Part shown: piece by piece, positions 833 through 53,013 of the stretch
How positions within the stretch are numbered: position 1 is the first letter of the stretch
Layout: every line of letters begins with the position of its first letter
IMG/VR virus record: IMGVR_UViG_3300009508_000011
Coordinates: 1 to 64,000 of that record
Reading direction: 5' to 3' (one strand)
From: a virus
Length of the DNA: 64,000 nucleotides
Translations under genes and position numbers: made by a program
The notes under the pieces: model-generated
Told to the model about the DNA's origin: nothing
Databases searched by the model: none
What the model saw: the letters and a program-made list of their open reading frames with translations, nothing else

Positions 833-876
833 ACAAAAAAATAAAGGGCATAAAGTAGGGAGCCGAAAGGCTCCCT
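833..876. terminator. Bidirectional terminator between convergent genes
   Basis: A perfect 8-bp stem AGGGAGCC/GGCTCCCT closes a GAAA tetraloop at 857-876. Read on the minus strand the hairpin is followed by CTTTATGCCC and then a T-run (the A-run at 834-840). It separates the plus-strand gene ending at 827 from the minus-strand gene ending at 927. Confidence 0.75.
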
Positions 877-926
877 AATTATGACGTTCACTTACTCGTT
901 ATTCACCAAGACAGCATAAAGCAGAA

Positions 927-1214
927 TTAGTAAATAAGGATAATACCTTTATCCGTACGAACACGACCAGCAGCCACGTTAGCCTTAGGTGAACGGTCCA
1001 TTGCGAACGCGTGGAAACCAGCAGAAGTTAGTTCCTTGGTATTTGGTACGTTACGAGTACCGTCTTCGTTCAACATGTAATTAGTGATGCCAGAAATCAA
1101 TCCAGGCCATGTTTGTTCAACATAGGCAGGGTCTAGCTCACCAGTAGATTTCATTGGTAAGTTAGTATCGGCGTTAACCTCACCCAACTTAGCAAGAATT
1201 TCCTCTATAGTCAT
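927..1214 (-). CDS. Small hypothetical protein, 95 aa
   Basis: No family was recognised. The frame could be extended to a TTG at 1229, but the ATG at 1214 is the better start because a GGAG sequence lies nine bases upstream. The protein begins MTIEEILAKLG and is soluble, with no membrane segment or cysteine motif. The middle reads WPGLISGITNYMLNEDG, and the C-terminus is GIILIY. It is the last minus-strand gene before the terminator at 833-876 and lies downstream of the large Gln-rich gene, from which it is separated by its own terminator and 130 bases. Function unknown. Confidence 0.65.
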   Translation of the reverse strand: MTIEEILAKLGEVNADTNLPMKSTGELDPAYVEQTWPGLISGITNYMLNEDGTRNVPNTKELTSAGFHAFAMDRSPKANVAAGRVRTDKGIILIY

Positions 1215-1333
1215 AGCGGGAATCTCCAAAGTAATGCATTAAAAGAAATAGTTAAAGTAGCAAAGATATCATGAATTAGCGGTTCAGGACTATTATGCGT
1301 TCAGGACTAGCATATATATAGGTAACATTAAGG

Positions 1334-1365
1334 CAAAAAAATAAAGGGGAGTAACCCCCTTTATT
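1334..1365 (-). terminator. Intrinsic terminator after the 732-aa gene
   Basis: On the minus strand AAAGGGG pairs with CCCCTTT (1343-1363) and is followed by ATTTTTTT (the A-run at 1335-1341). It lies about 20 bases after the stop codon of the gene ending at 1384. Confidence 0.75.
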
Positions 1366-1383
1366 CTGTTTACTAAATACCCA

Positions 1384-3582
1384 CTACTTTACTTTAGTAA
1401 ATGTGTAGGTTTTAGCAACTTGTTCAAGCTTACAGATACGGTAAACAACACCATCGGCCAAACGTAAAGAGAAATCACTAACACCAGTTTTAACTAGGCG
1501 TGAGAATATCGCTTGTACTGACTCATGTAATTGAGCATGGCTTGTATCTTGTATGTAGAACATTTCATCACTAGTAGCTGTAATGTTAAGTTCAGCAAGT
1601 GTGTAAGGTAATGCTAAGATATAACGCTCACGTTCAAGAAGAACTAGATTGTCAGTGGTCTTAGGTGCAGAATCACCTAACGCAGCTATTGCTTCATTAC
1701 GCATTTCGTCAGAAACTAGACGAATGTTATTGTGCATGATACGTGTAAGTATATCTTTCCACAATGCCGCTAGTTTAGCAGAACGGTTTTCAGCTAAGTA
1801 ATCAGTAACGTCACCGATGTCGTCAAATTCAGATATATCCAACTCAGCATCAAGTTGTGCATCTAAAGCATATCGAACATCACTAAGTAATTGTGCCGAT
1901 ACATATAACTGCATTGCACGTGGTAACGAACCAAGCTTCTCAACATATTCATCAAAACCATCAGAATCAAGAGATTCCATATCCGCGAATACTTGACGGT
2001 CAAAATCTTCAGCAACAACAAATGGTGTAACTAACTTGTCGTACGTTTCAATTGACTTATCTACAGAGCCTTGGGTCTGCGCTCTAATGGAAGCTACTGC
2101 AAACTCTTTGGTATCTGCCGTGGAGTAAGTAGCACGACTTTCATCGATAGTCTTACCAGTATGTTTAGTAACCATACCTTCATCTGCAACTTTACTTGCT
2201 GGTGCAGTAAGACTAGCACACTGTACAACGTGTTTAGGATGTACCGGAGCAACTGGTCCGTTTAGTGTGTGTTTAAGGTAATCCATATTTGCTTCCCCTT
2301 GTTTAACAGGAACTGTTTTAGATACGATTGACTCGTCTGAGTAATCAGCCCAGATATAATCAACCAGGATAGTTCCGTCGTCATATCCCATCTTGGCCTT
2401 ATCCGTATTTTCCAATTTAACTACTGGAATATCGGTTTGACCGTGAGGTAAGACTAGAACATTACACTGGTTGTCTTTACCAGTGACTACCGCAGCCTTA
2501 GGTAGATACTGACCATAGATTGCTCTGACTACACTATTTAATACAGGGCACTTGATTGCATCTGTAGAAGTTCGAGCATCGTCTTGCGCTATTGCTGATG
2601 TTACATTTACTTCGTGAGACATATCGGTAGTTCCTGTAGTTTGTGGCCCCTTTATTGGAGTGTCAAAGTTAACATCTTTACCAGTAGACTTAAATTCGTG
2701 TTGTGGTAAAAGTGCATCTAAATCGCTTTCGATTTCAGTAGTTACTTCATCAGTTTGTGACTGTGAAGACCTAGCTCCCCAAACCTTATCGGCATTCATG
2801 GGTTTCTTGTCTACCGCACCACGAGCTTTCCAATCTGTAGTAGATTCCTGTTTAGGTTTAGGACTGCTGTGTTGTTCGAAAGCTGTTGTGGTCGTACGTA
2901 TACCAGCAGCATTGCGAGAACTAACCTGAGGCTGACTATCACTAAAGAAGCCAGAGCGATTAGTACCACTTACTTGACGGTTCTGTGAACCCCAACCACT
3001 TTGAGCTGGTTGTTGGAAACCACCACGTTGTTGCTGCCATGCATTAGTTTGTGCAGGTTGACCAAACGCAGGTCGTTGGTTACCAAAATTACCAGAGGCT
3101 TGAGCGAACGTATTAGTTGGTTGACTAGATGCTACCAATTGCTCGGCTTGACCTTTCCATTCCATAGCACGTTGCTGATACTCAGGCGGTAATATCTGTT
3201 CAGCCAATTGAACATTACTACACCAGCGAACGGCAGCATCCATCTCAAAGATAGGTAACACCACTTCATTCTGGTACGCGTTAGGATTAACACCGCGTTG
3301 TCTTACTGCATCACACATACGTGCAACACAGCGAGCGTAGTCTTGGTTCTCAAAGTTGTTAGCACTTAGAGTGTTCCAAGTAGGAATGAAATATGGTTCA
3401 TCTATAACCACATTCTGTAAGACCCAACGGCCCATCCAGTATAAACCAGTAAACAGTGTAGGGTCGTTAACCTGAACCGTTGAAGGTGGGTTAATTGGCT
3501 GACTGTAATTAGGTTCCTGCTGGAGGGCTGCTTGTTGATTCATCAACTGGGTGAATTGTTGTTGATTACTCTGATTGAACAT
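1384..3582 (-). CDS. Large protein with Gln/Asn/Gly-rich low-complexity region, 732 aa
   Basis: The start is the ATG at 3582, seven bases after AAGGA; a GTG directly before it is the longer alternative. The N-terminus is Gln-rich (FNQSNQQQFTQLMNQQAAL). A folded-looking segment with many aromatic residues follows to about residue 150 (GLYWMGRWVLQNVVIDEPYF). Residues of about 150-260 are low complexity, rich in Gln, Gly, Asn, Ser, Phe and Trp. The C-terminal 470 residues look globular with a mixed alpha/beta composition. No enzymatic motif was seen. The gene follows the candidate RNA polymerase beta N-terminal half with a 42-base gap, so the two are probably cotranscribed. The composition resembles the Gln/Pro/Gly-rich tail of the protein at 53570-54850. 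Function unknown. Confidence 0.75.
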   Translation of the reverse strand: MFNQSNQQQFTQLMNQQAALQQEPNYSQPINPPSTVQVNDPTLFTGLYWMGRWVLQNVVIDEPYFIPTWNTLSANNFENQDYARCVARMCDAVRQRGVNPNAYQNEVVLPIFEMDAAVRWCSNVQLAEQILPPEYQQRAMEWKGQAEQLVASSQPTNTFAQASGNFGNQRPAFGQPAQTNAWQQQRGGFQQPAQSGWGSQNRQVSGTNRSGFFSDSQPQVSSRNAAGIRTTTTAFEQHSSPKPKQESTTDWKARGAVDKKPMNADKVWGARSSQSQTDEVTTEIESDLDALLPQHEFKSTGKDVNFDTPIKGPQTTGTTDMSHEVNVTSAIAQDDARTSTDAIKCPVLNSVVRAIYGQYLPKAAVVTGKDNQCNVLVLPHGQTDIPVVKLENTDKAKMGYDDGTILVDYIWADYSDESIVSKTVPVKQGEANMDYLKHTLNGPVAPVHPKHVVQCASLTAPASKVADEGMVTKHTGKTIDESRATYSTADTKEFAVASIRAQTQGSVDKSIETYDKLVTPFVVAEDFDRQVFADMESLDSDGFDEYVEKLGSLPRAMQLYVSAQLLSDVRYALDAQLDAELDISEFDDIGDVTDYLAENRSAKLAALWKDILTRIMHNNIRLVSDEMRNEAIAALGDSAPKTTDNLVLLERERYILALPYTLAELNITATSDEMFYIQDTSHAQLHESVQAIFSRLVKTGVSDFSLRLADGVVYRICKLEQVAKTYTFTKVK

Positions 3583-3624
3583 CACGTTATCCTTTTATTT
3601 ATCAGAAATTAATTCATTGTTAAT

Positions 3625-5280
3625 TTAGTCACGCATGACCACTTTTTCCATTTCACGTAAAACCGCTTCATGGCGTTCAGGGATTTGTACAATATCAGTG
3701 GCGTCTAAGTCGACGTACGGGTTAACACAATCTCGTCCTGTCGGGTTGGACTTTGGTTGATTGAGGTAACTAGCAACAGCCATCTGACTACTGTGTAATA
3801 CTAATTGTGGGTCGTACTCGGTTGTATCCGAACTGTATCCATCATTAGCCTTTGTTTGCTGTACAATGTTACTGGTAATCTTCATGAACATATTGTCACC
3901 AGAGATTTGATGAGTGGCTGTTTCACCATGCTTCTCACCATTAATCTTGAAGATTGCATCGAACTTAAGAGTTTTAGACAAAGTTTCATTTATTGAATCG
4001 AAAGTCAATACTCTTTTATCAGGGGCGAGCTTGTACATTGTCATGAATATGCTGTAAGTAATATCGAATAGTAAGTAACGAAGAATTACGAGATTCTTGT
4101 TAAACATACTTGAGATACCAAGTAAAGCAGTTGTATCATCTACATTACCACGACGTGAACGCATTAAAGCACCCATGTTAGATATAATGTAGTGGAATAA
4201 ATCCCAGACATCAGATACGTTAATATCTGCACGTTTAAACTTCTGTACCGATAGTTCGTCAACATACTCCGATAGTGAAGCCATGTGTACGTCCATTTCA
4301 TTTGCAAGTTTACCTTCACTGCGCTGATTCTTAATAATACGGCCAAGAGCCAAACGCCACATACGAGGGTCATCTAATTCGTCTATTGCAACTTCCAAAG
4401 GAAGATGGTCAGCAACGTAGAAGAATGATGCAATGTAATCACGAACTATCTCACTGAAGTCACTCTTACGAACAACTAAGCGAATGGAACAACTTTCATA
4501 CATCTGCACACGTCTAGCTGCCTTTGGGCGAGTTCCCATGTGAGCATGTAGTGAAGATAATATGTACCATTTGTCAGACGGGTACATCTGACTGGTAAGT
4601 TCTGGACCACCAACAATAACATCAATACCGCAGAATCGACGCATTGTTTCTGTAAAACCAAACTGTGCAAACATGTAATGGATAATTGATACCTCACACT
4701 TAACAGCGTTAGGACCTTTAGCTTTATCGTCACCATTATTATATATGCGTGAAGTTACGACGGCTCCATGGTTTTGCAGGGTACTGTTAACCAAGAAGTT
4801 ATGACTTGCACGTTCAAAGTTTAATTTGGCTCGGGTGAGGGGAATGAACAAACCATTCTGCTCGATGGATATTGCTTTATCTGCAATAACCGGACTTACA
4901 AAGTAACGAGTGCCTTTTATCCGTATACAACCACCAGGCCCTACCGCAGGTAAGAACATGAATTTTGGTGGCATCGGTCGTGGACCTGTTCCGTCATCGT
5001 AGGAGAACATGAACTTAACTAGATAAACATCTGACTTAGAAAGTTCTATCTGATGTTTACCATAACGCTTACGCGTGAGTTCATTGTATTCTTCTTTCGG
5101 GGTACAACGGACAACGTCTTCGAATACCAATCCTTTAGGGAAAGATTTACTAGCACATTTCATTACGCCCTTGATATACATCATAGCTTCTCTGAGGTGC
5201 TCAACAGCTAACCCTCGACAGACTCTCTCATTGAACTTCGGTAGTCCATCATGTATTGAATTGAAAAGAAAGTTATCCAC
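3625..5280 (-). CDS. Candidate RNA polymerase beta subunit, N-terminal half (phiKZ gp123-like)
   Basis: 551 aa. Residues 107-140 read KFMFLPAVGPGGCIRIKGTR followed by YFVSPVIADKAIS. This resembles the bacterial beta segment around [21 protein letters not shown], where a Gly turn leads into a strand and then the fork-side motif. The length suits the N-terminal half of a split beta subunit. In phiKZ the corresponding non-virion subunit gene, as I recall, lies a few genes from the major capsid gene, and here the capsid gene is 2.5 kb away. The start is a GTG at 5280, six bases after GGAG. No in-frame ATG lies near the N-terminus. Beta assignment is an inference from one motif and position; another virion or transcription-associated protein is possible. 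Confidence 0.5.
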   Translation of the reverse strand: MDNFLFNSIHDGLPKFNERVCRGLAVEHLREAMMYIKGVMKCASKSFPKGLVFEDVVRCTPKEEYNELTRKRYGKHQIELSKSDVYLVKFMFSYDDGTGPRPMPPKFMFLPAVGPGGCIRIKGTRYFVSPVIADKAISIEQNGLFIPLTRAKLNFERASHNFLVNSTLQNHGAVVTSRIYNNGDDKAKGPNAVKCEVSIIHYMFAQFGFTETMRRFCGIDVIVGGPELTSQMYPSDKWYILSSLHAHMGTRPKAARRVQMYESCSIRLVVRKSDFSEIVRDYIASFFYVADHLPLEVAIDELDDPRMWRLALGRIIKNQRSEGKLANEMDVHMASLSEYVDELSVQKFKRADINVSDVWDLFHYIISNMGALMRSRRGNVDDTTALLGISSMFNKNLVILRYLLFDITYSIFMTMYKLAPDKRVLTFDSINETLSKTLKFDAIFKINGEKHGETATHQISGDNMFMKITSNIVQQTKANDGYSSDTTEYDPQLVLHSSQMAVASYLNQPKSNPTGRDCVNPYVDLDATDIVQIPERHEAVLREMEKVVMRD

Positions 5281-5372
5281 CTTTATCTCCTGTTATTTTA
5301 ATAAATGGGTATTGGGAAATTTATTACATAATCTACCACTCTATGATATAAGTGAGCGATGTAAAATTTAAC

Positions 5373-6620: not shown

Positions 6621-6658
6621 AAGGCCCCCTTCACTTAAAACTAATTGTCGTATCACCA

Positions 6659-6671
6659 GTATAATATATTT
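6659..6671 (-). promoter_or_regulatory. AT-rich promoter core for the 415-aa gene
   Basis: On the minus strand the sequence reads AAATATATTATAC, close to the ACATATATTATC cores seen before the RNA polymerase genes. It lies about 40 bases upstream of the ATG at 6620, the same spacing as the other cores in this window. Confidence 0.45.
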
Positions 6672-6689
6672 CTGAAATAATTTAGGTCA

Positions 6690-6718
6690 GACGGCATAAA
6701 GGGTAGCATAAGCTACCC
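6690..6718 (-). terminator. Hairpin terminator with CTTTATGCCGTC tail
   Basis: On the minus strand GGGTAGC-TTAT-GCTACCC (6701-6718) is followed directly by CTTTATGCCGTC, without a proper T-tract. It follows the 82-aa gene by a few bases. The tail matches the one found after many other hairpins here. Confidence 0.65.
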
Positions 6719-6723
6719 ATGAC

Positions 6724-6972
6724 TTATTTAATATCCGGCGATGTTCTGGCTACTGTCTTACCATGGTCATTTATAAAGTAAGCATTACCTTTCATACTGA
6801 AGCCCATCCAAGCTCCACCATCACCAACAAAATCAACCATGATACGCTTAATTGGTTTATCTGTTAATTCGGTGTCAATAACTACCTTAGCTCTTTTACA
6901 TTCCACAAGCTCAAAGGTTTTTGTTGTATCTGAATCCACTCCATCCAGACTATCCATTAATTTAACAAACAT
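6724..6972 (-). CDS. Small hypothetical protein, 82 aa
   Basis: The ATG at 6972 is preceded by AGGAG about seven bases away. The protein looks like a small beta-rich domain: ELVECKRAKVVIDTELTDKP, then IKRIMVDFVGDGGAWMGFSM and a short C-terminal stretch. There are no metal-binding cysteines and no membrane segment. It is a single-gene unit bounded by a terminator on each side. Family and function not recognised. Confidence 0.65.
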   Translation of the reverse strand: MFVKLMDSLDGVDSDTTKTFELVECKRAKVVIDTELTDKPIKRIMVDFVGDGGAWMGFSMKGNAYFINDHGKTVARTSPDIK

Positions 6973-7059
6973 TTTAGTTCTCCTAATAGTAGTAATAGTA
7001 GTAGTACCTTTAAGTACATATAAATGTATCAGTACTTATTTTTTTATCTATAGGACATA

Positions 7060-7082: not shown

Positions 7083-7084
7083 TG

Positions 7085-7750: not shown

Positions 7751-7780
7751 TTTTTCTTTTCCTTATATTTAAACAGCAAA

Positions 7781-7803
7781 AGCAAGGGGGGATACCCCTT
7801 GCT
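7781..7803 (-). terminator. Terminator after the major capsid gene
   Basis: A strong stem AGCAAGGGG/CCCCTTGCT with a short loop lies 25 bases after the capsid stop codon. The run after the stem on the minus strand is TTTTGCTG. Confidence 0.65.
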
Positions 7804-12824: not shown

Positions 12825-13057
12825 TGTTGTTCTCAGTTAACCGTGAAAAAGTACTACTTTTAGTTTTAGGTATCTTTCTATTGTCAGTGGTGGGTGCTCA
12901 TTGTAACACCGGAGATAATGGTATTATTTATTGTGGATTTGCCTTGTACTACGGTACATTAGGTATACTACTATCCTTGGGTTGGGATTGGTTATGTAAA
13001 TCAATCGATGACCTAGATGATACAGATACTCAGCATAAAGCAGAGGAGGGCGGGTAG
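12824..13057 (+). CDS. Small two-span membrane protein, 77 aa
   Basis: I choose the ATG at 12824 because it overlaps the stop of the zinc-ribbon gene (TAATG), which suggests translational coupling. An ATG at 12803 would add seven residues. Two hydrophobic segments are seen, about residues 9-26 (KVLLLVLGIFLLSVVGA) and 38-57 (CGFALYYGTLGILLSLGW), joined by a short loop with two Cys. The C-terminus is acidic and hydrophilic. With the preceding protein it may form a membrane-associated pair. Size and two spans would also fit a holin or superinfection protein, but no lysin gene is adjacent. The stop codon lies inside the stem of the terminator. Confidence 0.65.
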   Translation: MLFSVNREKVLLLVLGIFLLSVVGAHCNTGDNGIIYCGFALYYGTLGILLSLGWDWLCKSIDDLDDTDTQHKAEEGG

Positions 13058-13076
13058 CCCTCCTCTATATGCCGTT
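13032..13076. terminator. Bidirectional terminator with CTTTATGC-type tails on both sides
   Basis: A 10-bp stem AGAGGAGGGC/GCCCTCCTCT (13042-13066) overlaps the stop of the 77-aa gene. On the plus strand it is followed by ATATGCCGTT, on the minus strand by GCTTTATGCTG. It serves the plus-strand group and the minus-strand gene ending at 13075. Confidence 0.8.
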
Positions 13077-17765: not shown

Positions 17766-17810
17766 CTGCCGACTCTCCTAAAATGTTTGAATACATAAAA
17801 TTACGAAAAC

Positions 17811-17837
17811 AAAAAAATAAAGGGAGCCTAAGCTCCC
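17811..17837 (-). terminator. Terminator after the 53-aa gene
   Basis: On the minus strand GGGAGC-TTAG-GCTCCC is followed by TTTATTTTTTT. It closes the short gene at 17862-18023. Confidence 0.75.
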
Positions 17838-19839: not shown

Positions 19840-19875
19840 TACTTTCTCTTTTATTTAAAGTTAACTATTCAATAA

Positions 19876-19890
19876 GATTATATATGTCTG
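19876..19890 (-). promoter_or_regulatory. AT-rich promoter core upstream of the nucleotidyltransferase-like gene
   Basis: On the minus strand CAGACATATATAATC resembles the TAAACATATATTATC cores before the RNA polymerase genes, and lies at the same distance from the start codon. Confidence 0.5.
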
Positions 19891-19903: not shown

Positions 19904-19934
19904 ACGTCATAAGGGAGGGGATTTCTCCCCTCCC
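19904..19934 (-). terminator. Terminator after inner-head gene 20012-21346
   Basis: On the minus strand GGGAGGGG pairs with CCCCTCCC (19913-19934) and is followed by CTTATGACGT, one base different from the CTTATGCCGT tail seen at other hairpins. Confidence 0.7.
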
Positions 19935-20011: not shown

Positions 20012-21346
20012 CTATTTGTAGTTAGAAAGCGACTTGTTACAAACCGTGATAGCAGCACGAACAGCAGCAAGGCCATTGTTAGTAATGCTAGTATGCGGTT
20101 CTGCAGACCAAGTTGTAAACGACTTAACGAAGTTCATAGCGCTCTTAGGGTAAGCACGAATTTCAGAAGAAGTATCTTCTAAACTAGATTCGGCTTTCTT
20201 AAGAGTATCACCACCCTTTTCAATGTCGTTAACAAGACCTTTGATAGTCTTGATGTTCTTTCCGCGCTCCCAAGCTTCAACACCGTCAACGATGTCAATA
20301 CAGAAATCAACAATTGATTTGATATCGGCTACAGCAAGTGTATCGATTTCAAGTTCTTCGATTGCGTCTTGTGAACGTTCGAAAGTAGACATGATACGAA
20401 CAGTGCGACCACGGAAACCTTCAGCAACGCCTAATGTACCAGCACCAGCTTCTTTTTCTGGTTCTTGTACAAAGATAGACATGTTACCAGGTAAGGCAGT
20501 ACCATAAACTTTAACGTTTTCAGAGAAACGACGGTCTTTGGTTTTAACTTCAGAAGCATCAAATGCTTTCTTGATTTTGCCCCAATCGTTATCGAATGCA
20601 TGAACCTTAGCAAGAGCAGAAGCATGTTGTTCAACAGTCCAGTCTTTACCAGGTTTGTATTCTTTAAGACCAGCTTTGATTACATCGCCACGGTCAATTA
20701 CACAACGAGTGTATGTATCGAACAAGCCATCAACAACAGCCTTAACAGTTTCAAGAGCATCTTGGATGTCTTTAGCTGACTTAGGAGCAACGTTGTTAAC
20801 AACTAATGGGTTGCCTGCGCTACCTACATCGGTTTTGCTTTCTTCAATTGATTTATCGATGTAGCCATCAGCACGTTCACGTAAAGCAATTAACTGCTTA
20901 CGAAGACGAGGTAATGCACCGAAGATTTTGTGGAAGAAGTCATCAACACGCTTCCAAATCTTTTTAACGAATTCTTTAATCGCTTTCCAGATATCCTGAG
21001 CGATAGATTTGATACCTTCAACAGATACCGTTTGACCTTCAGCACTTTCAAGACCAGGAGTAACAACCTCACCAGTGTGGATTGAACCAGCCATTGCTAA
21101 ATCAGAAGCTACGTCGATAAGACCAAGTTCGATAGCAGTAGCGCTTTCGATACCAGTAGAAACAGCAGCAAGGTTTTCTAAACCAGTTGCTAAGTCTTCA
21201 AAGCGGTCAGCTTCTTCGCCAAGTTGTACGATGTCCATGTGTGCTTCTACAGAAGCAACGATTGCGTTAGCTTGTTCAATTTCATCAAGCTCAACACGAG
21301 GAGCATGTTGTTGAGACACGCTACCAATAGTATTTAATCGAGACAT
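20012..21346 (-). CDS. Inner-head (inner body) virion protein with cleavable propeptide, 444 aa
   Basis: The N-terminus MSRLNTIGS matches that of the neighbouring gene (MSRLNQIGA). The first 110 residues are acidic and Ala/Glu-rich, ending in SVE (108-110), an S-x-E prohead-protease site. A strongly amphipathic basic helix follows (IKSIAQDIWKAIKEFVKKIW). The same order is found in the proteins at 21433-22740 and 29355-30590. In phiKZ, paralogous inner-body proteins of this kind are packaged with the DNA and cut by the prohead protease. The product would be ejected or help organise DNA in the head. The gene has its own terminator (19904-19934). Paralogy is judged from layout and motif; overall identity looks low. 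Confidence 0.65.
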   Translation of the reverse strand: MSRLNTIGSVSQQHAPRVELDEIEQANAIVASVEAHMDIVQLGEEADRFEDLATGLENLAAVSTGIESATAIELGLIDVASDLAMAGSIHTGEVVTPGLESAEGQTVSVEGIKSIAQDIWKAIKEFVKKIWKRVDDFFHKIFGALPRLRKQLIALRERADGYIDKSIEESKTDVGSAGNPLVVNNVAPKSAKDIQDALETVKAVVDGLFDTYTRCVIDRGDVIKAGLKEYKPGKDWTVEQHASALAKVHAFDNDWGKIKKAFDASEVKTKDRRFSENVKVYGTALPGNMSIFVQEPEKEAGAGTLGVAEGFRGRTVRIMSTFERSQDAIEELEIDTLAVADIKSIVDFCIDIVDGVEAWERGKNIKTIKGLVNDIEKGGDTLKKAESSLEDTSSEIRAYPKSAMNFVKSFTTWSAEPHTSITNNGLAAVRAAITVCNKSLSNYK

Positions 21347-29309: not shown

Positions 29310-29355
29310 ACGGCATAAAGGAGTGGTCTACTGACCACTCCTGTCTTTATGCTGT
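29310..29355. terminator. Bidirectional terminator with CTTTATGC tails on both sides
   Basis: The 8-bp stem GAGTGGTC/GACCACTC (29321-29340) is flanked symmetrically: CTTTATGCTG follows it on the plus strand and CTTTATGCCGTC on the minus strand. It separates the convergent genes ending at 29306 and 29355. Confidence 0.85.
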
Positions 29356-32924: not shown

Positions 32925-32970
32925 TCACTAATGTAATATGTATCTATCGTTTTCTGGGAACGACAAAAAA
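32925..32970 (-). promoter_or_regulatory. 46-bp strong early-promoter-like element, copy 1
   Basis: Nearly identical to 37223-37268 and 53417-53462. Read on the minus strand it has a T-run, GTCGTTCCCAGAAAACGATA, then the core ACATATTAC. This core is one base from the TATATTAC motif of phiKZ early promoters. It lies about 40 bases before the start of the gene at 32892. Confidence 0.65.
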
Positions 32971-35032: not shown

Positions 35033-35080
35033 AGGCAAAAAAAAATAAGTGGAGAGCTTCGGCTCTCCCTTATGCCGTAT
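35033..35080. terminator. Bidirectional terminator after the DNA polymerase gene
   Basis: GGAGAGC-TTCG-GCTCTCC (35051-35068) is followed on the plus strand by CTTATGCCGT. On the minus strand it is followed by ACTTATTTTTTTTT. The same hairpin and tail occur at 43507-43534. Confidence 0.85.
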
Positions 35081-37222: not shown

Positions 37223-37268
37223 TCACTAATGTAATATGTATCTATCGTTTTCTGGGAACGACAAAAAA
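37223..37268 (-). promoter_or_regulatory. 46-bp strong early-promoter-like element, copy 2
   Basis: Identical over 46 bases to 32925-32970. Core ACATATTAC on the minus strand. It overlaps the T-run of the preceding terminator, so promoter and terminator are packed together. Confidence 0.65.
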
Positions 37269-37292
37269 ATAAGGAGGGACCGAAGTCCCTCC
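37262..37292 (-). terminator. Terminator after the 144-aa gene
   Basis: On the minus strand GGAGGGAC-TTCG-GTCCCTCC (37273-37292) is followed by TTATTTTTTT. Between it and the stop codon at 37350 lie two small GC-containing hairpins. Confidence 0.8.
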
Positions 37293-37784: not shown

Positions 37785-37831
37785 ATTACTTTCCTTTTAC
37801 ACAGTACTAAGTTTAATGCTTTATTGCACTA

Positions 37832-37846
37832 GTATAATATGTGTTT
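37832..37846 (-). promoter_or_regulatory. AT-rich promoter core before the 144-aa gene
   Basis: On the minus strand AAACACATATTATAC, matching the ACATATTA core of the other elements, at the usual distance from the start codon. Confidence 0.5.
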
Positions 37847-37877
37847 GTTATTGTTTATAATTAAAGGTGTAGGTATA

Positions 37878-38021
37878 ATGAAGAAACGAAGACTTCTTCT
37901 AGCATTACTTTTCGTATCACCGTTGTTAATAACCCCAGCTACCATTTTACTAGAACCAATGCACGGTGCGGATATGATAGATGGTTGGGTTGAGAGAACA
38001 ACAGATACTAGATATGCATAG
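37878..38021 (+). CDS. Tiny signal-peptide-like protein, 47 aa
   Basis: The likely start is the ATG at 37878, with TAGGTAT before it; an upstream ATG at 37839 adds 13 residues. The sequence KKRRLLLALLFVSPLLITPA is a basic N-terminus plus hydrophobic core, as in a signal peptide or membrane anchor. A short polar tail of about 20 residues follows (HGADMIDGWVERTTDTRYA). It has no lipobox cysteine. A strong terminator follows ten bases after the stop, which supports it as a real gene. It is divergent from the 144-aa gene. It could act in the periplasm or membrane, for example in superinfection control, but that is a guess. Confidence 0.5.
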   Translation: MKKRRLLLALLFVSPLLITPATILLEPMHGADMIDGWVERTTDTRYA

Positions 38022-38030
38022 ATGTCATAA

Positions 38031-38067
38031 GTAGGAGTCCCAACGGACTCCTACTCACTTATGCCGT
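38031..38067. terminator. Bidirectional terminator between the 47-aa and 243-aa genes
   Basis: A 10-bp stem GTAGGAGTCC/GGACTCCTAC (38031-38054) is followed on the plus strand by TCACTTATGCCGT. The base of the stem is extended by CATAAG on one side and CTTATG on the other. Confidence 0.8.
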
Positions 38068-41215: not shown

Positions 41216-42040
41216 ATGTATTTAGGCGAATTACTTAGAAATAATTACGACATCGAACGTGTCGCTATTACTATCAAAGCCCTTGAGCTTTTCATGTCGA
41301 TGGACTATTTACAAGCCGAGGCTGACTTAGAGAAACTTATTAGTGACTGGGGTAACCTTACAGACACATCTAGTCTCCTTAGTGAAATAGATAACAGAAT
41401 CATCGAACACCTAGTATTCATTGTTCACGAATACGGCATAACACTCAATAGCGACTACAATCCATCCTTGTACGAAATGTACACTTTGGTTAACGGTATA
41501 GAGTTATTAACTCAGTACGACCAACCAGAAGACCTGTTGGATGTTATCGAAGCACAGGAAGATAATGTAGAACGTATGGTAGAGGCCATAGGGTTAGTTG
41601 TTAAGGATATGTTAACTGGTAATATCCTAGACTACTATAACATAGTGGAAAGCACTACCGAAGATTTCTGGAAGAATTTGATTTTGGTGGTTGAAGGTAC
41701 TAAAGAAGAGATTGTGGACTTCGATGCTAAGGTAAATATTAAACCTCCTCTTACTCCTAGTAAAGTGTGGGAGTGGATTGAACTTAGTGGACGTGCTGGT
41801 TACAGACTAGATGCTGCATTTAAGTTACATGACCAGATGTTAGAAGAAACTCTGGAACAGACTCCTAAGCGCGTTGCTATACAACAAATTTGTTTGGAGC
41901 TTAAGACCTTAGTACATTACTCAGGCAATGAAGATAAATCTGACGATGTTGTTTATCAACTATTAGAAGAACTTGACCCCAATCCAGACACATTACTAAT
42001 GGCTCAGTCGTTCCTACCGTACATTGACTTGGGACTTTAA
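41216..42040 (+). CDS. Hypothetical helical protein upstream of beta-prime gene, 274 aa
   Basis: The ATG follows AAGGAGAAATGAGTC. The protein is acidic and almost entirely helical (EAQEDNVERMVEAIGLVVKD, MLEETLEQTPKRVAIQQICL). No catalytic residues or metal sites were seen. Only 18 bases separate it from the beta-prime C-terminal half, so it is expressed with a polymerase subunit and may be an assembly partner or virion companion of that polymerase. It begins the plus-strand unit 41216-43488. Family not recognised. Confidence 0.6.
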   Translation: MYLGELLRNNYDIERVAITIKALELFMSMDYLQAEADLEKLISDWGNLTDTSSLLSEIDNRIIEHLVFIVHEYGITLNSDYNPSLYEMYTLVNGIELLTQYDQPEDLLDVIEAQEDNVERMVEAIGLVVKDMLTGNILDYYNIVESTTEDFWKNLILVVEGTKEEIVDFDAKVNIKPPLTPSKVWEWIELSGRAGYRLDAAFKLHDQMLEETLEQTPKRVAIQQICLELKTLVHYSGNEDKSDDVVYQLLEELDPNPDTLLMAQSFLPYIDLGL

Positions 42041-42058: not shown

Positions 42059-43315
42059 ATGAATAAAAAAGCTTTTTTATTATTCCTTGCCCGTAATAAG
42101 TTATACGCAAAAAAGAAAGTATTAATTTCTTCTTTCGCTATAATTCAACCGGAAGAGCAAGGTACATCTGAACCTTACGTGGGTCAGGTAACAACACGTG
42201 ATGGTAAAGTGACCATCATGGATGACCAATTAGAACCTCAAATACTTGAAGGTTGGGTTGATGGTAAACCATATCTAGACGTAAACGAAATCGTAGAGTT
42301 AGACTCAGGCGATATCCCAAACGTTAAAGATAAAGTTAAAACTACATACGGCATTGCTTTAGTTAACCTACTAATGCTTACACATGCTTTTGGTGACAAA
42401 ATTCCATACATGAATGGTGTTATCGGGTACGGTAGACTTGAGTCTAAGGTATTAGAAGCACTACATGGTGGAGACATCAGTGTAGAGGAGCTTAGGGTCT
42501 TTCTTAAAGCCGCTTCTTGGTCTACTGGCATAATGCCATTGTTTATAGCACCGACCTCTCCTAAGTCCATACAGGGCGCTCCAGAGGCCAAGGCACTACG
42601 TAAGAAATTAATCGAAGAACGCAAAGATAGATTGGATGACCCAACTGCTCTTGCTGAAATCGATACCGCACTTTCAAAACTAGATAAAGAATACATCGAG
42701 GGTGATGTTACTGAGGCTTTCTATAAGTCAGGTAAGGCACACAACGTAACTCGTAAACGTATGTACTCTATATTCGGTGGTGAAGCAGATATGGAGAATC
42801 CATCTAAGATGAATCTTGTATCTAACTCATTGGAAGAAGAGTGGGACGTAGAACAAATGCCAGCAATGATTAATGCCTTGCGTATGGGTTCTTATAAGCG
42901 TGGTGCAGAAACTGCATTAGGTGGTGCTGACTTTAAAGATTTATCTCGTATGTTCCAAAACATCAAGATAACCGAAGATGACTGCGGTACTAAGGTTGGT
43001 AAGAGAACTTTATTTACTAATGAAAACTACAAACGTCTAACTGGTCGTACTACGGTTAAAGGTAAGAAATTATCTGATACAGATGCTAAAGCTTTAATTG
43101 GTAAACGGGAACTGTTACGTTCACCACAAGCCTGTAAGACTAAGGGTTCTAACTTCTGTAAGGTTTGTGTTGGTGAAGCAGTATCAATCAATCCTAACTC
43201 CGTAGGTATGCTTGCAGCTAATCTAGGTGCTTCTTTCTTAAGTATCATGATGGCAGCCATGCATGGCCGTGCGTTGACACTGGTAGAAGCAGACTTAAAT
43301 GAGGTACTATCGTAA
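42059..43315 (+). CDS. RNA polymerase beta-prime C-terminal half, probably virion RNAP (phiKZ gp80-like)
   Basis: 418 aa. The region MGSYKRGAETALGGADFKDL then SRMFQ (276-300) matches the bridge helix of beta-prime (SYARKGLADTALKTANSG type). ITEDDCGT (304-311) matches VTEDDCGT of the trigger-loop strand, and C359, C367 and C370 with VGEAVSINPNSVGMLAANLG correspond to the zinc motif and GEAIGVIAAQSIGEPG. The NADFDGD catalytic loop is absent, as expected for the C-terminal half of a split subunit. Sequence and length differ clearly from the other beta-prime half at 48319-50295, so two distinct polymerases are encoded. phiKZ-like phages carry one in the virion for early genes and one for later genes. 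The gene position after the helicase block suits the virion enzyme. Confidence 0.85.
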   Translation: MNKKAFLLFLARNKLYAKKKVLISSFAIIQPEEQGTSEPYVGQVTTRDGKVTIMDDQLEPQILEGWVDGKPYLDVNEIVELDSGDIPNVKDKVKTTYGIALVNLLMLTHAFGDKIPYMNGVIGYGRLESKVLEALHGGDISVEELRVFLKAASWSTGIMPLFIAPTSPKSIQGAPEAKALRKKLIEERKDRLDDPTALAEIDTALSKLDKEYIEGDVTEAFYKSGKAHNVTRKRMYSIFGGEADMENPSKMNLVSNSLEEEWDVEQMPAMINALRMGSYKRGAETALGGADFKDLSRMFQNIKITEDDCGTKVGKRTLFTNENYKRLTGRTTVKGKKLSDTDAKALIGKRELLRSPQACKTKGSNFCKVCVGEAVSINPNSVGMLAANLGASFLSIMMAAMHGRALTLVEADLNEVLS

Positions 43316-43488
43316 TGAATTACTTTAACAGAGTACATAGACACATCAGTGACGTAGCTAATGTTACATTACCATATCGGGACATCGATGCGCATAATAA
43401 CTCACGCATTAAGGCCTCTAAGCTTTTTAAGCCTCGTGGTAAAACCTTCGATAAAATGTGTAAGTTAAGTAAAACAACCAAATGGTAA
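43315..43488 (+). CDS. Short basic protein coupled to the beta-prime gene, 57 aa
   Basis: The ATG overlaps the stop of the RNA polymerase gene (TAATG), and the frame runs 57 codons to TAA at 43486-43488, 18 bases before a strong terminator. The product is basic (FNRVHRHISDVANVTLPYR, ASKLFKPRGKTFDKMCKLSK) with no membrane segment. Coupling and terminator together argue that it is a real gene. It may be a small partner of the RNA polymerase subunit. Family unknown. Confidence 0.6.
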   Translation: MNYFNRVHRHISDVANVTLPYRDIDAHNNSRIKASKLFKPRGKTFDKMCKLSKTTKW

Positions 43489-43506: not shown

Positions 43507-43534
43507 GGAGAGCTTCGGCTCTCCCTTATGCCGT
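43507..43534 (+). terminator. Terminator after the beta-prime unit
   Basis: GGAGAGC-TTCG-GCTCTCC followed by CTTATGCCGT, the same hairpin and tail as after the DNA polymerase gene at 35051-35078. Confidence 0.85.
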
Positions 43535-43989: not shown

Positions 43990-43993
43990 GGTG

Positions 43994-44036
43994 AAAAAAA
44001 AATAAGGAGGGCTAGTGCCCTCCGTATTTATGCAGT
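43994..44036. terminator. Bidirectional terminator
   Basis: GGAGGGC-TAGT-GCCCTCC (44006-44023) is followed on the plus strand by GTATTTATGCAGT, a weaker version of the common tail, and on the minus strand by TTATTTTTTTT. Confidence 0.75.
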
Positions 44037-44762: not shown

Positions 44763-44806
44763 CGTAATTCCTCATTTTATTTAAACTTTCCTTTTATGTG
44801 TTTACG

Positions 44807-44834
44807 AAAAAAATAAAGGGGCACTAAGCCCCTT
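44807..44834 (-). terminator. Terminator after the 361-aa gene
   Basis: On the minus strand AAGGGGC-TTAGT-GCCCCTT is followed by TATTTTTTT. It lies between the 361-aa gene and the methyltransferase gene. Confidence 0.75.
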
Positions 44835-44850
44835 TTTATTCTCAGCTATT

Positions 44851-48293: not shown

Positions 48294-48318
48294 AATTAAC
48301 CTCTCCCGTTGTTGCCAG

Positions 48319-50295
48319 TTACCCCGCTAGAATATTGTCGAAGTTGTGGTCAGGATTATTCTTGTTGATATAAGACGAAGCACGCATTATAACATCACCA
48401 TGTCTTTCAAATGCCATAGCCGCAGACATACTACGGTTAAACATATTCTCACGATGAATGTTAAACGATTCTTCCTCTTGACCAATAGGTGGACAATTTG
48501 AATTGGCCCGCACAGTTGATGTTACCATAGACGACAATAACAATATCTCAAGATGCAATACATTTACATTAGCTCTGCTATTTACAATATCGTAAAGTTT
48601 ACGCAGCGCCTCAGCAGAAGTCTTACATGCAAAGACACCATTACGACCTTTCTTCTCAATGAAGTTAGATATGCTTTTCATGTACTCAAGCATGTTCATG
48701 TGTCGTTGTGGCATTACCAAGAATGGTTTACTAAACGTCCAATGTGCTAAATCAATCACATAGTCGCCATAGTTATCAACTTCCCAACCGTACTTCTTCA
48801 AGTACTCTAGAAATTCATAAGTAAAGCTAGCTAGACGTGGTCCTACTGAAGTAGGTACAATATTATCCACGTTCTCATCTACACCTTTACTGTTTTTGAT
48901 TGTTCGTCTAATAACGATTTCAGCCATAGCAGCAAGTGTTGTAGTAGGGAGAATTTTAACATCAACAACTTCAGGGTTATTAATGTCTTCCAGATATTTA
49001 ACGTACTGTTCTGGAATAACTAACTTTGGACTTTGGTCTTTCAGGGTCATGTGGAATTGAATCTTAGACTGGTCAGTAGTGTTCAACTTAATGAACTCCG
49101 CATCACGAGCTTCTATATTCAAATGTTCAGCAACCGATGAACCATCTTCATGTTTGGTAGACATTACCTTTTGGGTTACGAATGAACATAACGCAATAGC
49201 ACTAATGTGTCCCAATCTAGTAGCCTGCTTATAATACATCTGACTTGGTATTGAATAACTCAAAGACCCACAGCATGTTTCACAGACCATATACTCATGA
49301 CGATGTTTACATTCCAAAGCAGAACGTAAGCGAATTAACTTACCTTCCAAATGTTTAGATTGCTTAGTAATTTCTTCCAGTTTACCATCTGCTGTAACAT
49401 GTACCTTACCAGCAAGATTACCAAGTGATTTCTTTGTAACTAAGAATTCAACTGTACCGGAAGTTCCACAGTCACCGGGAACTAAACCTTTTACGTATTG
49501 GTTTTGTAAAGATACTTTACGACCAAAGTACTCAGTAGCACGTAGAGGTTCAGTTGTAACTTTAAGTGCCTTAGTACCAGAGCGTGACTCCATAGCAGAA
49601 TCAGCAATCTTCTTAAGACCCTCAGCGTATCCCGGCATAACTGGTCTACGGAATATATTGGAATCGTAATCTGTTATAAAACCACGAGGACCAATAGCCT
49701 GTAATACCTGACCAACCGATATTAAAGATGCACGACACGCTACACAGACAGCATTGTCATTAAGTGTAGGACAGTTCATTATAATGTCAGTAATCTGGCG
49801 ATAGGTTTGCTCAAGACTAGCAGTACTAGGACGCGCTTCAGCCTTAGCTTCCTTTATTACAGGATGTTCTAACAGTTCAAGATAATCGAGAACTGAGATT
49901 GTTGTTACGTATGCTTCTAGTTCTTCACCAGTAAACACAAATACATTGTTAAAGATAATCATTGCCATACGGTTTAATAAATCCATATCGCGACAGATAC
50001 CTTGGTCGAAACATTCCCACAGAGGCCGTGAGATTAATTTCTTATGGACACTATTACCGAAAACAACATTACCGATATGGTGATGTGGCAATAGAGGTAA
50101 CTGAGGGAATTGACGATGGTAATCCCAATAGATAGTTGACACTATAGTCTTACGACCATTGAGTGTTTCTATTGTACCATCATCGAACTCCACCTGCATC
50201 GTTAACACGTCACAGTAACGTTCCATAAGTTCTTCCATCGAGAGAGGTAACAAGTCTCTCGCTTTAACTACGCCATCAAGGTGTATTGGATGCAT
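48319..50295 (-). CDS. RNA polymerase beta-prime C-terminal half, probably non-virion RNAP (phiKZ gp74-like)
   Basis: 658 aa. QVLQAIGPRGFITDYDSN (197-213) matches the beta-prime stretch QIRQLAGMRGLMAKPDGS. SAMESRSGTKALKVTTEPLR (233-252) is the bridge helix and GLVPGDCGTSG (270-280) the DDCGT strand. CKHRHEYMVCETCCG is a zinc cluster, followed by LGHISAIALCSFVTQKVMST at the GEAIGVIAAQSIGEPG position. NADFDGD is absent, so this is the C-terminal half of the split subunit. It lies 29 bases after the beta C-terminal half, as in phiKZ where I recall gp71-73 followed by gp74. It has an extra N-terminal domain of about 180 residues compared with the second beta-prime half at 42059-43315. The enzyme transcribes middle and late phage genes. 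Confidence 0.85.
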   Translation of the reverse strand: MHPIHLDGVVKARDLLPLSMEELMERYCDVLTMQVEFDDGTIETLNGRKTIVSTIYWDYHRQFPQLPLLPHHHIGNVVFGNSVHKKLISRPLWECFDQGICRDMDLLNRMAMIIFNNVFVFTGEELEAYVTTISVLDYLELLEHPVIKEAKAEARPSTASLEQTYRQITDIIMNCPTLNDNAVCVACRASLISVGQVLQAIGPRGFITDYDSNIFRRPVMPGYAEGLKKIADSAMESRSGTKALKVTTEPLRATEYFGRKVSLQNQYVKGLVPGDCGTSGTVEFLVTKKSLGNLAGKVHVTADGKLEEITKQSKHLEGKLIRLRSALECKHRHEYMVCETCCGSLSYSIPSQMYYKQATRLGHISAIALCSFVTQKVMSTKHEDGSSVAEHLNIEARDAEFIKLNTTDQSKIQFHMTLKDQSPKLVIPEQYVKYLEDINNPEVVDVKILPTTTLAAMAEIVIRRTIKNSKGVDENVDNIVPTSVGPRLASFTYEFLEYLKKYGWEVDNYGDYVIDLAHWTFSKPFLVMPQRHMNMLEYMKSISNFIEKKGRNGVFACKTSAEALRKLYDIVNSRANVNVLHLEILLLSSMVTSTVRANSNCPPIGQEEESFNIHRENMFNRSMSAAMAFERHGDVIMRASSYINKNNPDHNFDNILAG

Positions 50296-50324
50296 AATTG
50301 AATATTTCCTTTTAAGTTAATTCG

Positions 50325-52493
50325 TTATTTACCAGGTTTATACGGAGCGTATCTAAATTCAACGCCACCGCACATCATCAAATGTTTCATGAGTTGCAAT
50401 GGACGTGAGTTACCACGAGGTATTTTCTTACGGTTAACAACACAATCAATATCGGTAGGTTTCTCAGCCGTCATTATATTGTGGTTAATTTCTTCTGATG
50501 AATACAACGAGTTAGTTCTATCCAACAATTCCGCTACTATATCTGGGTCCATAACCGCAGACATTAGACGTACCTCTGATTCACCTGCAAAACGCACAGG
50601 AGATTCACGATAAGGGTTAAGATATTTATCCGCTCTACCCAACTGTACAACAATGCCGTGATGTTGACGCTTAGCAATTGAAGTAGTTGACCAATCTTCA
50701 CCAGTTTTATCTAGCAACATCATGTACTTAGTATCAATGGCTACAGGACGCTTAGTAGTAATCATCTTACCTGAGTTACCACGATAGGTAACAGGACCGA
50801 CAATACTTTTACAATTAGCTTCTATATCCTTGACTTGCTGAATACCGATGTTAGGACTATTTGGTGGCAGCATTAAAGTAATGGCTTCTTGGTCAGTTAG
50901 TTTAGGATTACCCACTTCACGAACATGATTATCTTGTTTATCTTTACTATCAAGATGTTTCATGCAATACCAATACATATACGGCGACGCTGCTTTATAA
51001 TACGCCATTAGAATCTGATAACCTTCTTCCAATGATGCACAAGCACGAACACGTCTAGCACATTGTGTACTGGCTTGGTTAGTCCACTGCTCAAATATCT
51101 GACCAACATTAGAACGCTTAATTACTGAAAGCGGGTCTTTAATAACATCTGCTACAATACCACAAGCAGTAGTAGGCATATCAGCATCTGGACGAATACC
51201 AACTATTACACCTTTTGTACCGTGAGTATCCGTAATCTTGTAACCGATTGTTGGAACCTTACGATAGGCATAAGTTATTTCAATGTTGAAGTCATCTAGA
51301 GGGGCTTTGTTCTTGGTGCGAACAACTCTATCCTTACTTGAGTCATTAAAGTTAGCATACGCTTCAACTACCCAAGAATGGAAAGCAGGAGTTATATCCA
51401 AGTTACCACGACGTTTACTATTGTTCTGCTGATAAAGCTCTATTATTTTTCTATAGAACAAATCCTTACTTTGCACATACTTCAACATCTCGTCATCCAT
51501 TCCAGTAGGAGTGGTTCGATATCTAGCATTGTGGTCAGTTAGTATTTCAACATCTACAATAGTTGCACCAGGCTGAGCATAAATCGTTTTGTCAAATTCG
51601 ATGTCTACTCTATCACCCAACAGATTACGAGGATGTAAATCTGAGATGGTTAAGTTTTCATCTATCGTACGGAAAGCCATAACTAAACCGTCTTCACGAA
51701 TTTTCTCACCGGGACCAGGGAAAGGTTTATAGTGATTCTCATCACCGTACAGATTAAGTGGGAATATATGCTTACCACAAGAAGCTGTACGAGTACCTAA
51801 CATAGTCGTTGCCAACTTACGTTGATAACTCTCACTAATTTCAAAACCATCCTCAATGATACCTGGGACAGTCATGTAAGCTACGTTAGTTTCAATACCG
51901 TACTCGTAGTTACCTTCATTATCTACACAAGGAGAATCTGCAAGTACTGTACCTTTACCAACATTGCCACCTTTAGTGATGCGTTGTAAAGCATGTGTGT
52001 TCTGTTTGTATTTCCAACCCAGACTTGTGTGCTGGAAGAAGTATTTCTCAAGTAGGATACTTCCGATTTCTTTTGTTTCAAAATCTTCATATACTACCAA
52101 GGTAGAAGGGTTTTCTTTAATAGCTCCCTGAGATACCTGCTTAGCATATTTAGGGAACACACCAAGGATTGTTGCATTGACAGGAATGCGTTGATTAAAA
52201 GTGTACTTACCAAATTCACGTTCCGTACCAGTAAGGTTACGACGTACTGTAGAGCCTTCAGTTACCAAACGTTGTTTAAGGTGAGATGCTTGCATCTGCT
52301 GACGAGATGCTGAGTTAACGGCTACCCAAGGATTCAAATTTGTTGGAGCACCAACAAGTTCAATATCTAATTCGTTGACTAAACTGGCCTTCCCCTCATC
52401 GTCAAGGGTCACGAACAGTTCTGTCTGTAAATCCATATACAATGGTTCACCGTCCATATCCGTGATATGAAGAAATCGTTTATCATCAATCAT
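50325..52493 (-). CDS. RNA polymerase beta C-terminal half, probably non-virion RNAP (phiKZ gp71-73-like)
   Basis: 722 aa. VAYMTVPGIIEDGFEISESY (204-223) matches beta AFMPWNGYNFEDSILVSE. GYKITDTHGTKGVI (417-430) matches GDKMAGRHGNKGV, and DMPTTACGIVADVIKDPLSV then IKRSNVGQIFE (438-468) matches DMPYDENG...NPLGVPSRMNIGQILE. These are the catalytic-centre and clamp segments of the C-terminal half of beta. The N-terminal half is not fused here. Unlike the phiKZ counterpart, which I recall as interrupted by an intron, the gene is continuous. A promoter core (52536-52560) nearly identical to that of the gp68-like gene lies 45-65 bases upstream. Confidence 0.9.
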   Translation of the reverse strand: MIDDKRFLHITDMDGEPLYMDLQTELFVTLDDEGKASLVNELDIELVGAPTNLNPWVAVNSASRQQMQASHLKQRLVTEGSTVRRNLTGTEREFGKYTFNQRIPVNATILGVFPKYAKQVSQGAIKENPSTLVVYEDFETKEIGSILLEKYFFQHTSLGWKYKQNTHALQRITKGGNVGKGTVLADSPCVDNEGNYEYGIETNVAYMTVPGIIEDGFEISESYQRKLATTMLGTRTASCGKHIFPLNLYGDENHYKPFPGPGEKIREDGLVMAFRTIDENLTISDLHPRNLLGDRVDIEFDKTIYAQPGATIVDVEILTDHNARYRTTPTGMDDEMLKYVQSKDLFYRKIIELYQQNNSKRRGNLDITPAFHSWVVEAYANFNDSSKDRVVRTKNKAPLDDFNIEITYAYRKVPTIGYKITDTHGTKGVIVGIRPDADMPTTACGIVADVIKDPLSVIKRSNVGQIFEQWTNQASTQCARRVRACASLEEGYQILMAYYKAASPYMYWYCMKHLDSKDKQDNHVREVGNPKLTDQEAITLMLPPNSPNIGIQQVKDIEANCKSIVGPVTYRGNSGKMITTKRPVAIDTKYMMLLDKTGEDWSTTSIAKRQHHGIVVQLGRADKYLNPYRESPVRFAGESEVRLMSAVMDPDIVAELLDRTNSLYSSEEINHNIMTAEKPTDIDCVVNRKKIPRGNSRPLQLMKHLMMCGGVEFRYAPYKPGK

Positions 52494-52535
52494 TCTTATA
52501 GTTTCCTTTTATTTTATTAAGAGTGTATGCCATTA

Positions 52536-52560
52536 GATAATATATGTTTATAATTATTTA
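52536..52560 (-). promoter_or_regulatory. Promoter of the beta C-terminal-half gene
   Basis: On the minus strand TAAATAATTATAAACATATATTATC. It differs by one base in 25 from the sequence at 57996-58020 upstream of the gp68-like gene, so the two genes appear to share a promoter class. Confidence 0.6.
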
Positions 52561-52615
52561 ATCGGGTAGGTATCTCTTTTTATGTTTAGTTCTTAGAAGC
52601 TTCGGAGACCAGCTA

Positions 52616-52951
52616 ATGGATATCACCAAAAGCATGAATAGTGAAGGAGCTGACATTTTCTACGACTCCGATTTCCGGAGTGTTCTGGAAGACCATGTCC
52701 CTCTACTGAGAGATGATGCTGCTACAGAAATAGTTAATGTCAAATCTAACGTAGCCTATAAATTTGAATACGATTTAACTGGCTATTTATCATCTATTAA
52801 TGTACCACATTACTTACATTGGATAACAATGAGAATTAATGGATGGAAGAAGGATACAGAGTTCTTCAACCCAACTATGATTCGAATTCCGCATCGTAAT
52901 AGTGTAAATAAAATAAAACAAATGTTTGAAGCAACCACTACAAAAAAATAG
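52616..52951 (+). CDS. Small baseplate wedge-like protein (T4 gp53-like pattern), 111 aa
   Basis: The ATG has GGAG nine bases upstream. The segment DFRSVLEDHVPLLRDDAATE followed by YDLTGYLSSINVPHYLHWIT and then TMIRIPHRNSV has the order seen in T4 gp53-type baseplate wedge proteins: a helical opening, a strand-turn with a W-I-T/M core and a final R/KIP strand. The gene is a single plus-strand gene inside the minus-strand RNA polymerase region, ending with its own terminator. A baseplate part encoded away from the tail cluster would be unusual; the call rests on this pattern only. Confidence 0.35.
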   Translation: MDITKSMNSEGADIFYDSDFRSVLEDHVPLLRDDAATEIVNVKSNVAYKFEYDLTGYLSSINVPHYLHWITMRINGWKKDTEFFNPTMIRIPHRNSVNKIKQMFEATTTKK

Positions 52952-52983
52952 ATGGCTGCGTATTTTTTTCACTTAAAAAGCAG

Positions 52984-53013
52984 GGGATTCTCAGGAATCC
53001 TCGCTTATGCCGT
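52984..53013 (+). terminator. Terminator with GCTTATGCCGTT tail
   Basis: GGGGATTC and GAATCCTC pair (one G-T) at 52984-53002 and are followed by GCTTATGCCGTT, 30 bases after the 111-aa gene. Confidence 0.7.

Follow-up and report, generated by a model that had tools for sequence, protein, structure and literature searches.

A hairpin and TTATGYCGT tail as a candidate gene-end terminator of the non-virion RNA polymerase in a phiKZ-like phage and its relatives

Genes and gene-end hairpins in the window

The window analysed here is the 64-kb stretch that forms the start of a 206,117-base IMG/VR phage record (IMGVR_UViG_3300009508_000011), and a census of its gene-end hairpins distinguished two tails on the transcribed strand: class A, TTWTGNCGT, and class B, a T-run, typically TTTATTTTTTTG. 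Judged from sequence, class A is probably an intrinsic terminator of the non-virion RNA polymerase (nvRNAP) of the phage. The phage is phiKZ-like and the window encodes a phiKZ-type major capsid protein together with homologs of RNA polymerase-related genes, namely gp74-like and gp71-73-like genes (nvRNAP), a gp80-like gene (virion RNA polymerase, vRNAP) and gp123, located as follows.

3625..5280, minus strand: gp123 homolog, a beta-like subunit of the nvRNAP; its counterpart in phiKZ binds TATG on the non-template strand (phmmer against phiKZ gp123, E=1e-70)
42059..43315, plus strand: gp80-like vRNAP subunit, a virion gene with a class A terminator after it
48319..52493, minus strand: nvRNAP subunit genes, gp74-like (48319-50295) and gp71-73-like (50325-52493)

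The sites at which the initial annotation had listed hairpins followed by a recurrent tail were all present to within 1-2 bases, on the plus strand at 13067, 35069, 38058, 43525 and 53004 and on the minus strand at 845-855 (CTTTATGCCCT), 6691-6701, 13030-13040 (CTTTATGCTGA), 19904-19913 and 29310-29320. The two elements said to carry the tail on both sides, at 13032-13076 and 29310-29355, are real and lie between convergent genes. Terminators of both classes in the window were the following.

845..887, both strands: two-sided class A, hairpin 856-877, plus tail TTATGACGT to 887, minus tail CTTTATGCCCT at 845-855
1325..1365, minus strand: class B (T-run), hairpin 1340-1365, class B in three relatives
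6691..6718, minus strand: class A, hairpin 6701-6718, tail CTTTATGCCGT
7772..7803, minus strand: class A variant behind the major capsid gene, hairpin 7781-7803, tail TTTTGCTGT
13030..13076, both strands: two-sided class A between convergent genes, hairpin 13042-13066, tails CTATATGCCGT (plus) and CTTTATGCTGA (minus)
17808..17837, minus strand: class B, hairpin 17822-17837, tail TTTATTTTTTTG
19904..19934, minus strand: class A behind the internal head protein gene 20012-21346, hairpin 19913-19934, tail CTTATGACGT
29310..29355, both strands: two-sided class A between convergent genes, hairpin 29319-29342, tails TTATGCCGT (minus) and CTTTATGCTGT (plus)
35034..35078, both strands: shared hairpin 35051-35068, class A on the plus strand (CTTATGCCGT, behind DNA polymerase) and class B on the minus strand (CTTATTTTTTTTTG)
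37258..37292, minus strand: class B or composite, hairpin 37273-37292, tail TTATTTTTTTGTCGTT
38030..38067, plus strand: class A, hairpin 38030-38055, tail CTTATGCCGT, minus side TTATGACATC
43507..43534, plus strand: class A behind the gp80-like gene (42059-43315) and a small open reading frame (ORF; 43315-43488), tail CTTATGCCGT
44006..44036, both strands: shared hairpin 44006-44023, plus TTTATGCAGT (class A variant), minus TTATTTTTTTTT (class B)
44800..44835, minus strand: class B closing the gene run headed by the nvRNAP beta gene
52983..53013, plus strand: class A behind ORF 52616-52951, tail CTTATGCCGT

The strong plus-strand class A terminator near 37785-38055 had no plus-strand gene called upstream of it and perhaps marks a small RNA, a missed gene or an antisense stop. 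The internal head gene 21433-22740 was considered as a class B exception and excluded from the evidence, as its T-run was unconserved in relatives.

Placement of the motif and distribution of the two classes

The window has seven copies of the word TTATGCCGT where 0.38 would be expected, an 18-fold excess, and six of the seven come after a hairpin, the exception being at 41433 on the minus strand. Hairpins followed by TTWTGHCG numbered 10, whereas 100 dinucleotide shuffles gave 0.08 on average and never more than 2, which rules out chance as the origin of the combination. Across the 206-kb record 13 of 14 copies of TTATGCCGT and 24 of 27 of TTATG[ACT]CGT were noncoding and directly behind a hairpin, while all 229 hairpin sides in coding sequence were free of the motif, so that an origin in coding sequence is ruled out as well. 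The prospect, raised by the initial annotation itself, that the motif might be as common away from hairpins was tested and is not borne out by these counts. A more accurate consensus than the TTWATGCCGT given there is TTWTGNCGT, in which W is usually A and N is C, T or A, with 1-5 nt between the stem and TATG; the leading C is outside the core and often the final base of the stem.

Class A resembles an intrinsic terminator in having a stable GC hairpin just past gene ends on the transcribed strand, and it lacks the U-run (about 6-8) directly past the hairpin that class B possesses. The description of the tail as replacing a plain T-tract holds for class A and had overlooked the T-run terminators that are also in the window, nearly all on the minus strand. 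Class A sides mostly had a co-directional gene upstream, and the direction of a single tail matched that of the upstream gene. In this phage class A was distributed over both strands (26 plus, 19 minus) and class B was concentrated on one (4 plus, 33 minus), with phiKZ as a mirror image (class B 28 plus, 7 minus). Each genome had 10-11 shared hairpins with class A on one strand and class B on the other, and 10 of the approximately 35 A-bearing hairpins of this phage had class A on both sides. A hairpins being mostly one-sided, the tail is not an extension of the stem in the symmetric elements. Searches of the window returned no Rfam match at the gathering score and no tRNA.

Composite tails were rare, an example being TATGTC followed by a T-run in phiKZ. 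At 111345-111394 of the record (minus strand) a hairpin with a T-run is immediately followed by a second hairpin with CACTTATGCCGT, as if to close one unit for both polymerases. Two further class A terminators of the record, at 178590-178600 and 198710-198720 on the minus strand, precede the identical word TTATGTCGTTTCCAAAAAACGATAGA, which suggests a duplicated 3' region.

Conservation in relatives and spread in the family

Megablast against the phage collection gave no nucleotide relatives, and the relatives used here came from a protein search and IMG/VR scans. Two near relatives, G001 (218 kb) and G002 (208 kb), have 81-89% protein identity and were compared over almost whole genomes; further relatives were a fragment (G003) and the more distant G004 (58%). 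Tail class was kept in 74 of 76 clear cases at orthologous genes (A to A 42, A to B 1, B to B 32, B to A 1). Stem pairs differed between relatives in 139 of 385 cases, with both sides changed in 107, and the 9-nt tail core was 90% identical against 51% in the following 16 nt, a core value somewhat inflated because part of the core was used in choosing the sites. In these sequence comparisons the tail class is conserved amid compensatory change of the stem. At 6691..6718, for example, the stem is replaced with pairing kept in G001, G002 and G004 while the tail stays TTATGCCG, the same tail following four different stems behind gene 6724-6972. The tail at 7772..7803 is TTTATGCC or TTTATGCCGT in the relatives, and the class was also kept at 845..887, which lies 28 nt past the end of plus-strand gene 24-827, a virion structural homolog.

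The wider comparison covered the whole genome of phiKZ and stretches of PhiPA3, OBP, EL, SPN3US, Goslar, LucasX, Ea35-70, AR9 and T4. Unbiased expectation maximization (EM) on the tails returned TTATGYCGT in this phage, G001, G002, phiKZ, PhiPA3, LucasX and Ea35-70, and TTATGTTT in OBP. Goslar and G004 had TATG tails by count, and the word TTATGYCGT was in excess in 201phi2-1. The signal is not peculiar to one phage, being present also in phiKZ, PhiPA3, LucasX, Ea35-70, OBP and Goslar. EM on the tails of EL, SPN3US and AR9 gave T/A-rich tails and not TTATGYCGT in the stretches examined, and in the T4 stretch one of 38 tails was TATG-type and nine were T-runs. The EL minus strand featured very strong gene-end hairpins with GGTTATT-like tails rather than TATG ones, perhaps a further tail specific to a polymerase.

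Association of tail class with promoter class

Motif discovery recovered the phiKZ early promoter, TAAAnnnTATATTAC....TG, and a counterpart in this phage, tAgAcAtATATtAta.TAgTGa, which was restricted to the strand rich in class B. Early promoters in the window were as follows.

6653..6674, minus strand: CAGAAATATATTATACTGGTGA
52529..52550, minus strand: TAAACATATATTATCTAATGGC, upstream of the nvRNAP gp71-73-like gene
57989..58010, minus strand: TAAACATATATTATCTTAGTGA, upstream of a gp68-like gene
19869-19890, 32925-32946, 37223-37244, 37826-37847 and 56382-56403, minus strand: further early promoters

Units with an early promoter ended in class B or AB in 16 of 19 cases in this phage, 14 of 18 in G001, 15 of 17 in G002 and 17 of 22 in phiKZ, and in the same four genomes the majority of units without an early promoter ended in class A. 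The association was significant in each genome (Fisher p of 2e-4 in this phage, 2e-4 in G001, 9e-6 in G002 and 1e-5 in phiKZ). The pooled Mantel-Haenszel odds ratio was 11 (p=7e-16), and 6 on the early strand alone (p=8e-8); as G001 and G002 are kin of the window phage the pooled p overstates independence, with this phage and phiKZ each significant alone. The association held under a simpler rule and other energy cut-offs. Virion genes gave the same picture, since those annotated in phiKZ had 12 class A and no class B ends against 13 A and 11 B or AB for other genes (p=0.006), and virion homologs in this phage had nine A and no B. Class A thus follows late units rather than early-promoter units as a strong tendency, with exceptions. 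For class B, service of the vRNAP, the maker of early RNA, is the best reading.

Apart from these associations, tAgAcAtATATtAta.TAgTGa was noted to be homologous to the phiKZ early promoter TATATTAC, and one and the same 22-mer, TAGATACATATTACATTAGTGA, recurs in four upstream regions of the record.

The late promoter word in the tail and a proposed mechanism

The promoter word of the phiKZ nvRNAP is TATG, in which G is +1 and any single change cripples the promoter (PMC4666361), and non-template TATG is bound in a pocket of the phiKZ beta-like subunit gp123 (PMC12809450); the structure of the phiKZ enzyme in complex with TATG has been solved. The class A tail contains this start word at the ends of units that nvRNAP should close. 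In this phage TATG was the top conserved 4-mer upstream of non-early genes (19 of 42, or 45%, against an average of 18%), including those for the capsid and tail sheath. EM for plus-strand late promoters had yielded only a weak CCTATGAT-like motif and was replaced by this conservation across relatives. A candidate TATG-reading subunit is encoded by the gp123 homolog at 3625-5280, in which most pocket residues are present (S144, F151, K158, H331, S334, Y399, Y406 and Q466) and the positions of K190, N398 and S402 differ. Across all tail-bearing phages S144, F151, H331, S334, an aromatic residue at 406 and Q466 were retained, while pocket residues were lost in EL (S144, Y406), SPN3US (S144, H185, S334) and AR9 (most of them). 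This correlation comprises few independent events among related phages, and EL, SPN3US and AR9 are also the most diverged overall.

The initial annotation had taken the tail to be a sequence-specific signal for either the RNA polymerase of the phage or an RNA-processing enzyme. Placement at gene ends, the split by early promoter, conservation of class and occurrence in relatives give good support to a sequence-specific terminator linked to a phage polymerase, and the processing option is less favoured because the tail holds the nvRNAP promoter word and the classes sort by promoter class. Under the proposed scheme nvRNAP would transcribe past the hairpin until TTATG entered the bubble, where the gp123 homolog would grip the non-template TATG as it does at late promoters. 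The polymerase would then halt over the following YCGT, the nascent hairpin would pull apart the upstream portion of the RNA:DNA hybrid, which is weak and U/A-rich, and the RNA would be released about 7-9 nt past the stem. RNA 3' ends would accordingly lie inside the tail, where nvRNAP would terminate unaided. That capture of TATG by gp123 causes the halt is put forward tentatively. The explanation as a whole, in which class A serves nvRNAP, class B serves vRNAP and the halt comes from capture of TATG, is on the sequence evidence the likely one. More speculatively, the phiKZ group may possess two punctuation codes, each belonging to one of the phage polymerases, with TATG, read on the non-template strand by the beta-like subunit of the late polymerase, acting both as a start and, with a hairpin, as a stop; the terminator code would then be gained or lost in the family together with the pocket.

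Several observations weigh against this explanation. The early strand has many class B tails in units without an early promoter, some early units have class A ends and the gp55-like nvRNAP gene ends in a class A tail. The phages behind the pocket correlation are few and related, and in phiKZ the gp123 pocket of the transcribing complex is described as closed and incomplete before an 8-degree turn of the beta-lobe (PMC12809450), so that capture during elongation is uncertain. TTTTG replaces TATG in some class A tails, although single changes to TATG cripple phiKZ promoters, and the tail also requires YCGT, which is no promoter feature. Lastly, TTAT follows hairpins in class B tails and in EL, and part of TATG may therefore be a mere weak-hybrid feature.

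Alternative explanations

The strongest alternative keeps class A as an nvRNAP terminator and leaves TATG unread, TTAT supplying a weak hybrid and YCGT (pyrimidine-G) an elemental pause. It is possible and nearly as likely as capture, since TTAT comes after hairpins in EL and in class B tails too, some tails have T for the A of TATG, and the extent of TTATGCC past the stem approximates the usual distance from hairpin to release. It accounts poorly for the G after TTAT and the YCGT, both conserved among distant phages with the TATG pocket and absent from those lacking it, and for the preference for A rather than T (56-95%), a plain T-run being an available option.

A role of the tail in RNA processing or 3' trimming is improbable; in this alternative a phage or host nuclease would cut run-on RNA at UUAUG/YCGU and the hairpin would guard the end. 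A fixed sequence beside a hairpin would also suit a nuclease, but tail class follows promoter class even within one strand, and the hairpins shared by A and B on opposite strands are what two stopping polymerases predict. A nuclease of matching distribution was not found, none having been sought.

It is very unlikely that the sites are late promoters lying past hairpins, or sites of termination and restart. Late promoters do have TATG as their core, and one conserved hairpin-TATATGACCGG is located upstream of the plus-strand gene at 189018 of the record; most class A sides, however, are behind a gene end, the next gene in this genome is convergent for 21 sides and co-directional for 12, and late promoter flanks (CCTATGAT) are unlike those of the tail (TTATGYCGT). 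A late promoter as the main role, which calls for positions upstream of co-directional genes, was rejected on this orientation. A DNA-binding or recombination site with no part in transcription is hardly credible, for although some elements are symmetric (ACGGCATAA ... TTATGCCGT), two-sided hairpins are the minority counted above and single tails follow the upstream gene.

Relation to known terminators

Bacterial intrinsic (Rho-independent, class I) terminators likewise place a GC hairpin at the gene end with a 7-9 nt tail, and class B is one of these; in class A the position of the U-run is taken by TTATGYCGT, and Rfam was silent on the window. The class II terminator of T7-like single-subunit RNA polymerases, HATCTGTT followed by T-rich sequence, is hairpin-independent (PMC11347151). 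It shares with class A the halting of a phage polymerase by a fixed sequence, and an assignment of class A to it was rejected as class A always has a hairpin, has another sequence and occurs with genes for multisubunit polymerases. The sigma70 promoter-like pause arises when the elongating polymerase comes upon a promoter word a second time and is stopped by contacts with the non-template strand (PMC7876045). The halting principle is the same, for class A as a proposal, while the sigma70 pause is promoter-proximal and depends on retained sigma and the class A proposal involves gene ends, a beta-like subunit and a hairpin. The phiKZ late promoter (PMC4666361, PMC12809450) shares the four letters and the strand sense with the tail but is hairpin-free with G as +1, whereas the tails have TATG past a hairpin and the YCGT extension. 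In AR9, which has two multisubunit polymerases, terminators were predicted at operon ends and termination was seen in RNA-seq (PMC5312081); its tails are T/A-rich without the G and its nvRNAP promoter is not TATG.

No terminator of this kind was known to the initial annotation, and this stands for the open literature searched, in which neither the TTATGYCGT tail nor termination by these polymerases is described; the phiKZ transcriptome paper of Ceyssens 2014 lay outside that literature and may mention the tail. For nucleus-forming jumbo phages the polymerases and promoters are well studied and the ending of transcription is undescribed in the same literature. On the sequence evidence the end signals of early and late units differ, which makes both the limits of operons and the temporal class of genes readable from sequence alone, and the tails offer a promoter-independent assignment of genes to either polymerase in uncultured relatives.

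Additional observations

The LucasX annotators used ARNold, which marked two terminators in the 20-kb stretch examined; the deposited annotation lists few terminators despite the common hairpin-TTATGYCGT, and other phiKZ-like deposits are also sparse in them. In the window AATAAAAGGA forms a fixed leader and ribosome-binding site ahead of approximately 20 minus-strand gene starts.

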